Below, in pieces: positions 16,910-46,010 of a stretch of DNA of 64,000 nt. Numbering within the stretch: position 1 is the stretch's first letter; each line of letters opens with the position of its first letter. Position numbers and translations under genes: made by a program. A model generated the notes under the pieces. It was not told the origin of the DNA and did no database searches. It saw only the letters and a list, made by a program, of their open reading frames with translations. The stretch covers positions 1-64,000 of the forward strand of contig PFFG01000008.1 in the NCBI GenBank assembly GCA_002783265.1. The letters run 5' to 3'. Origin of the DNA: Candidatus Gracilibacteria bacterium CG17_big_fil_post_rev_8_21_14_2_50_48_13 (lineage in GTDB: Bacteria; Patescibacteriota; Gracilibacteria; 1-14-2-50-48-13).

Positions 16910-16985
16910 GCGGGTATAGTTCAATTGGCTAGAATAACAGCCTTCCAAGCTGTGTATACGGGTTCGAGTCCCGTTACCCGCTCCA
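16910..16985 (+). tRNA. tRNA-Gly (TCC)
   Basis: A 76-nt cloverleaf with acceptor GCGGGTA/TACCCGC, anticodon loop CTTCCAA (anticodon TCC), T arm GGTTCGAGTCC, discriminator T73 and encoded CCA. The UCCA 3' end matches the UGGA bulge of the glyS T-box at 45.87 kb. The anticodon TCC does not match the GGC specifier proposed there, so a second tRNA-Gly (GCC) should exist elsewhere in the genome. Confidence 0.97.
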
Positions 16986-45793: not shown

Positions 45794-45945
45794 AAATAGA
45801 AGATCAGGGGATAGAAAAAAGCTCGTCTCTACATACATCAGTGATGTTTGCAGGGACGAGCTCTTGCCCGCGGTTCCACCCGGCTTCGCCACGAAGGCGC
45901 TCTTTTATGGAGAGACTAACTGACAAACAGGTGCCATGCTGTTCG
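45794..45945 (-). promoter_or_regulatory. Glycine T-box riboswitch with very short specifier hairpin
   Basis: Minus-strand leader of glyS. The T-box core GGGTGGAACCGCGGG (45881-45867) and CGTCCC (45858-45853) form the canonical antiterminator: GGG/CCC and GCG/CGU around a TGGAACC bulge, whose UGGA pairs with the UCCA end of uncharged tRNA-Gly. The alternative is a terminator at 45862-45815. Upstream, ACGAACAG-CATGGCAC-CTGTTTGT makes an 8-bp hairpin (9 bp with the flanking G-C) starting at the predicted +1. Its loop holds a glycine codon GGC (45935-45933) followed by A, as expected for a specifier. A small GC-rich hairpin (45901-45885) stands in the stem III position. No long stem I exists. 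Confidence 0.92.
45815..45862 (-). terminator. T-box-controlled terminator
   Basis: AGCTCGTC (45862-45855) pairs with GACGAGCT (minus strand, ending 45820), extended by imperfect pairing across ACATCA/TGATGT, then TTTTTT (45820-45815). It shares the CGTCCC strand with the antiterminator, so the two exclude each other. Confidence 0.93.
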
Positions 45946-45950
45946 TCTGC

Positions 45951-45978
45951 AGGATAATTGACTCCTTTACAATGTCAA
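45951..45978 (-). promoter_or_regulatory. glyS promoter
   Basis: Minus strand TTGACA (45978-45973), 16-bp spacer, TATCCT (45956-45951). Predicted +1 at 45945-45944, directly at the specifier hairpin. Confidence 0.8.
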
Positions 45979-45982
45979 GGAA

Positions 45983-46010
45983 TTGACACGCTGAAAAAGT
46001 GGGGTAATTT
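45983..46010 (+). promoter_or_regulatory. Promoter of the RDD gene
   Basis: TTGACA (45983-45988), 16-bp spacer, TAATTT (46005-46010); leader about 27 nt. Its -35 box lies 4 bp from that of the divergent glyS promoter, so the pair forms the palindrome TGTCAAGGAATTGACA. Confidence 0.7.

Follow-up and report, generated by a model that had tools for sequence, protein, structure and literature searches.

A probable glycine-specific, transcription-terminating T-box with a "decapitated" stem I upstream of glyS in a Patescibacteria genome

The 64,000-nucleotide stretch of DNA that we analysed (the window) carries on its minus strand the gene glyS (45793-44381, start codon ATG at 45793-45791), which is preceded by a short structured leader. 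The encoded glycyl-tRNA synthetase (GlyRS) matches NF003211 and TIGR00389 (glyS_dimeric), both above their cut-offs, and is hence of the alpha2 type that an earlier note on this DNA had assigned to it. Its best named relative, at 70% identity, is the GlyRS of the Patescibacteria MAG KLAP129, which supports the CPR origin proposed in the same note; no T-box core was found in KLAP129. The genome is small (1.28 Mb), and the GlyRS genes of some class mates contain in-frame TGA codons, as expected for UGA-recoded lineages, which we take to be Gracilibacteria-like.

The leader opens with a putative sigma-70 promoter, identified by its match to the consensus, in which a -35 hexamer TTGACA (45978-45973, minus strand, as are all parts of the leader) and a -10 hexamer TATCCT (45956-45951) are separated by an N16 spacer. 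This site has 10/12 consensus matches in a promoter scan of the window, and the glyS leader of a relative (G079) is likewise preceded by a -10 TATCCT. Transcription would start at about 45946-45942, at or near the base of the first hairpin, although the exact +1 is uncertain because a further promoter-like site with 9/12 matches lies on the minus strand at 46041-46014. The earlier proposal that the hairpin starts at +1 is compatible with the promoter, but the exact +1 is read from the consensus and faces this rival site. An inverted repeat, TGTCAA-TTCC-TTGACA (45988-45973, minus), overlaps the -35 hexamer and is possibly an operator or a chance occurrence.

At the place of a stem I stands a single 9-bp specifier hairpin, GACGAACAG-CAUGGCAC-CUGUUUGUC (45947-45922), an ultrashort stem I supported by sequence, fold, shuffles and covariation. 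Its 5' arm ACGAACAG (45946-45939) forms 8 bp with the 3' arm CUGUUUGU (45930-45923), the ninth pair being G45947-C45922, and the 8-nt loop CAUGGCAC (45938-45931) presents GGC-A, such that the glycine specifier triplet GGC (45935-45933) is preceded by U, followed by A and complementary to the anticodon of tRNA-Gly(GCC). A mostly single-stranded linker of 22 nt (45921-45900) occupies the position where stem II would be and ends at its 3' side in the purine string AAAAGAG. Beyond it the fold gives stem III, CGCC-UUCGU-GGCG (45899-45887), flanked by AAAAGAG on the 5' side and AA on the 3' side, and then the antiterminator (45884-45850), recognized by its pairing and by a weak RF00230 match, with the T-box bulge UGGAACC at 45878-45872. 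Its sequence runs GCCGGG-UGGAACC-GCGGGC-AAGA-GCUCGU-CCCUGC, from which helices A1 (GCcGGG/CCCuGC) and A2 (GCGGGC/GCUCGU, the first pair being G.U) are formed. An intrinsic terminator with a U6 tract follows at about 45865-45815; the strand GCUCGUCCCUGC is common to both structures, so that the two compete and are mutually exclusive, with predicted energies of -25.8 kcal/mol for the terminator and -12.2 kcal/mol for the antiterminator. Sequence and fold thus bear out in place the promoter, the antiterminator and the exclusive terminator with its U-tract that had been described before, and 45850-45947 holds, together with the specifier hairpin, all that makes up a T-box discriminator: stem III, the UGGAACC bulge, the antiterminator and a terminator that competes with it.

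The perfect hairpin with GGC-A in an 8-nt loop, as first reported, extends to 9 bp and goes beyond chance: when 45978-45884 was shuffled 20,000 times with dinucleotides preserved, UGGNR loops closed by 8 bp or more arose with a frequency of 0.0003. The fold of the full leader is more stable than that of 200/200 shuffles (z -3.8). General features of T-boxes are present, including the UGGN bulge between A1 and A2, the G.U pair that opens A2 and, around stem III, the expected RRRxG (PMC7583486) and AA purines, here AAAAGAG-CGCC..GGCG-AA. No stem II was apparent by eye in the 22 nt between hairpin and stem III, where the minimum free energy fold of the full leader has a few weakly paired bases, the centroid has none and a weak CUCU/AGAG hairpin forms when a longer sub-region is folded. 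Upstream of the hairpin, a fold of 45880-46010 gave no convincing outer helix or stem I, and only ~100 nt of intergenic DNA, promoter included, are available there. RF00230 reports no T-box in the window at its gathering threshold. The search of the leader with this model that the earlier note had called for does return a match, but it scores 27-30 bits where the gathering threshold is 93; the discriminator aligns well, whereas the sole alignment over the upstream region has low posterior support and mismatched pairs. We attribute this weak recognition to the 5' half of the leader, which has no proper counterpart in the model, and the lack of the usual long stem I that had been inferred at the outset is upheld.

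We then consider how these parts might work together. The tRNA-Gly(GCC) of this genome has the anticodon loop UUGCCAU and the discriminator base U73; AUGGCA inside the loop CAUGGCAC complements its U33-U38, and the bulge UGGA complements U73-CCA. The tRNA-Gly gene within the window, at 16910-16982 on the plus strand, encodes tRNA-Gly(UCC), an isoacceptor other than the one expected at the GGC specifier. In the proposed mechanism, RNA polymerase would start at or near the hairpin base, and the U-GGC-A of the loop would meet the anticodon loop of tRNA-Gly(GCC), where as many as 5-6 Watson-Crick pairs could form (U33-U38). The U73-CCA end of an uncharged tRNA would pair with the bulge UGGA and stabilize the antiterminator, allowing transcription of glyS, whereas charged tRNA-Gly could not pair with the bulge and the stronger terminator would form. 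Neither a tRNA-elbow platform nor stem II would take part, and extended loop-loop pairing may, as a hypothesis, compensate for both. The U that precedes the codon can pair with A37, and it belongs to the motif searched for and detected in 59/60 leaders described below; this U and the purine after the codon agree with extended pairing and equally resemble the U-turn pattern of an anticodon loop, so that the data do not decide between the two. The affinity of a bare hairpin is open to doubt, because published T-boxes all hold the tRNA by the IDTM, the motif that contacts the tRNA elbow, or by stem II (PMC10482949).

The same genome has a second T-box outside the window, upstream of aspS (L001, G000:C1:317797-317959), whose short apical loop shows GAC-A and whose bulge is UGGC, both of which fit tRNA-Asp(GUC) with G73.

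Homologous leaders occur throughout the class. RF00230 detected T-boxes in 38/357 class genomes, with 0/357 over the gathering cut-off; a covariance model built from 13 glyS leaders found them in 87/357, and 67 of its matches lie upstream of GlyRS as judged by tblastn, although most near relatives lack a detected element. Removal of near copies left 60 non-redundant GlyRS leaders. Given that the A+T-richness of these leaders made codon-box enrichment on hairpins uninformative, we adopted an approach in which a fixed stretch ahead of the T-box was searched for UGGNR from the sequence only, ignoring pairing, and the flanks of UGGNR were then tested against shuffled partners. UGGNR is at the expected place in 59/60 leaders, with one site in 54, two in 5 and none in 1. 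In the 53 leaders used for the closing-stem pairing test (L188 being set aside), the contiguous stem around UGGNR has a mean of 4.83 bp; when 3' flanks were reassigned among leaders the mean fell to 1.77 (sd 0.18, max 2.53), and 0/5000 trials reached the observed value. UGGNR is therefore found in the terminal loop of stems that covary strongly. A lack of conservation of the GGC loop among homologues, which the earlier note would have taken as a refutation, was thus not observed. The hairpin stem of the window is the longest among the 53, and its loop fits the consensus. A model-fitted alignment of 69 leaders, which leans towards structure because it was fitted to that structure, has changes on both sides in 22/23 pairs and a covariation score of 0.609, compared with 0.205 when shuffled and ≤0.145 when slid, counts that take in stem III (helix 3) and the antiterminator (helices 4-6); the 53-leader test is free of this bias.

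The third base of the codon is A in 35, C in 11, U in 4 and G in 3 of the 53 leaders, and the codon is followed by A in 51 and by G in 2. The GGU (L134, L155, L156 and L176) and GGG (L178, L191 and L198) specifiers have no obvious Watson-Crick tRNA partner. Apart from L200, the GlyRS-linked leaders have UGGA as their T-box bulge. A proposed covariation of T-box position -2 with tRNA nucleotide 38 was not supported, tRNA-Gly(GCC) having U38 in 4/4 GGC genomes checked and the base at -2 being A, U or G. In L143, L044, L168, L176 and similar GlyRS T-boxes, stem III is absent or almost absent and the purine strings run straight into each other, e.g. AAAAGUAAAA.

Other T-boxes were seen beside the glycine family. 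A set before ileS (L055, L059-L061, L064, L066 and L071) presents AUC in ∼6-nt apical loops and contains stem II-like GAAGAAA/AGUAGA motifs, i.e. it is class III-like; at least L055 is transcriptional, since it ends in a clear terminator. Longer T-boxes in the same class of bacteria (L047-L053 and L056) precede argG/argF-like genes and score up to 83 bits against RF00230.

The published scheme recognizes four classes of T-box, in which binding is augmented by the IDTM, by the S-turn of stem II or by both (PMC10482949). Classes I and II have a long stem I with the IDTM, class II being glycine-specific and without stem II (PMC10482949). Like class II, exemplified by Bacillus subtilis glyQS, the leader in the window is glycine-specific, lies upstream of GlyRS, has a linker (45921-45900) in place of stem II and is of the transcriptional design with stem III and an antiterminator/terminator pair, but the RF00230 alignment and the fold reveal no convincing long stem I with IDTM and no internal-loop specifier, only one 8-9-bp hairpin with an apical specifier. 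Class III has a short stem I with a 5-6-nt apical specifier loop and requires stem II (PMC10482949). With these "ultrashort" T-boxes of Nocardia and Mycobacterium ileS our leader shares the short stem I without IDTM and the apical specifier, whereas they have a stem II S-turn and a IIA/B pseudoknot, neither recognisable here, and are directed to tRNA-Ile and mostly translational; the present leader is for glycine and ends in a terminator. Its loop, when all 9 bp of the stem are counted, has 8 nt where class III has 5-6 nt, and in homologues the size ranges over 6-10 nt with the choice of closing pairs. Class IV, as in Actinomyces odontolyticus ileS, also lacks the IDTM but has a side-bulge specifier on an intermediate stem I (PMC10482949), together with stem II, and is mostly translational. 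Judged from its sequence, the leader is a T-box by every discriminator feature tested, yet it fits none of the four published classes; with neither IDTM nor stem II recognisable, it would belong to a further class, transcriptional and glycine-specific.

We weighed four other accounts of the locus. Transcription might start further upstream, at 46041-46014, and the hairpin only cap a cryptic stem I of greater length and with more contacts, as the promoter-like site there and the outer helix seen around the specifier hairpin in many relatives could suggest. This we regard as unlikely: TTGACA-N16-TATCCT scores higher than the upstream site, the fold of that region yields no convincing outer helix or stem I, its RF00230 alignment is weak with many broken pairs, and in L196 the distance from promoter to hairpin is even shorter, 13 nt. 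That the T-box is vestigial, a constitutive attenuator or a decaying element whose hairpin no longer binds tRNA, would accord with the reduced genome, the loss of a canonical-type stem I and the failure to detect the element in most near relatives, but it is improbable for a hairpin with the longest stem of 53 and a consensus loop, in a family of about 60 leaders in which stems covary and the codon is kept.

We give still less credence to the view that the known classes suffice and that the leader is simply a T-box of class III (ultrashort ileS-like) or class II (glyQS-like). The apical specifier of the former and the glycine specificity without stem II of the latter (PMC10482949) are indeed both present, but the leader is without the stem II and IIA/B pseudoknot required by class III and, unlike class II, has neither a long stem I nor an IDTM; its loop under the full 9-bp stem has 8 rather than 5-6 nt, and it ends in a terminator. 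A chance resemblance, in which an unrelated attenuator happens to contain the word TGGAACC, would explain the sub-threshold Rfam score, but is hardly credible when discriminator, gene, codon and tRNA all agree and the homologues covary. The parts of the leader, their fit to tRNA-Gly(GCC) and the conservation and covariation in about 60 leaders instead point to a glycine-specific T-box riboswitch that acts by transcription termination and has a "decapitated" stem I, which we consider very likely from the sequence evidence and in which uncharged tRNA-Gly would bring about antitermination.

The design extends beyond the class. In a phylum-wide sample, 75/381 Patescibacteria genomes were matched, and among 28 loci inspected the same hairpin was seen at GlyRS in other Patescibacteria classes, for example CGG-CUUGGCAA-CCG (L287) and AAAG-GUUGGAAA-CUUU (L293). 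The minimal glycine T-box architecture put forward for this leader in the earlier note is therefore supported but not unique, being class-wide and present in other classes, usually with an extra outer helix, which is found in many relatives and is not apparent in the window. Several other-class leaders, inspected by eye, have UGA and GAG on either side of the inner stem. This arrangement resembles the base of a canonical stem I and suggests an origin of the short stem in which all parts above the specifier loop were lost; these flanks were not seen in the window. K-turn-like GA flanks, noted by eye in L287, L293, L294 and L296 from other classes, are not claimed as a class feature, since only 2/53 leaders of the class have them and the window does not.

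In most relatives the hairpin follows closely behind a good promoter. Counted from the end of the best promoter-like site to the U of UGGN, the gap is 14 nt in the window and 13 nt in L196, the shortest promoter-to-specifier distances; in other leaders the commonest distance is ∼22-43 nt, and some figures are larger because a site farther away was picked by the scan. Two GlyRS T-boxes of the same family, L188 (G160:C13:7802-7932) and L200 (G149:C21:9478-9577), have a strong promoter abutting stem III (TTGACA-N17-TATACT and TTGACT-N16-TATACT, respectively) and the bulges UGGA and UGGG. With the promoter directly before stem III there is no room for any stem I, and by eye the sole upstream UGGAA of L188 belongs to the 3'-terminal part of the open frame before it, so these two are apparent discriminator-only T-boxes. 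Family-wide, a discriminator-only model found T-boxes in 24/27 genomes, the abutment of promoters having been inspected in part of the matches.

Together these data make it fairly likely that Patescibacteria possess a fifth class of T-box, transcriptional and glycine-specific, with a bare apical-loop hairpin that makes a 5-6-bp kissing contact with the anticodon loop without the IDTM or stem II otherwise regarded as necessary in T-boxes, and reduced in two genomes to the discriminator. A literature search found no paper on T-boxes in Patescibacteria, subscription papers being outside its reach. The family would add T-box regulation to this phylum, where the Rfam cut-off misses all examples in the class (0/357 genomes), and would define a minimal tRNA-sensing RNA of roughly 100 nt. 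Transcriptional T-boxes must bind fast (PMC7583486, PMC10482949), and as a rule they depend on the IDTM (PMC7583486); a large natural family devoid of both IDTM and stem II would make the IDTM/S-turn rule directly testable.
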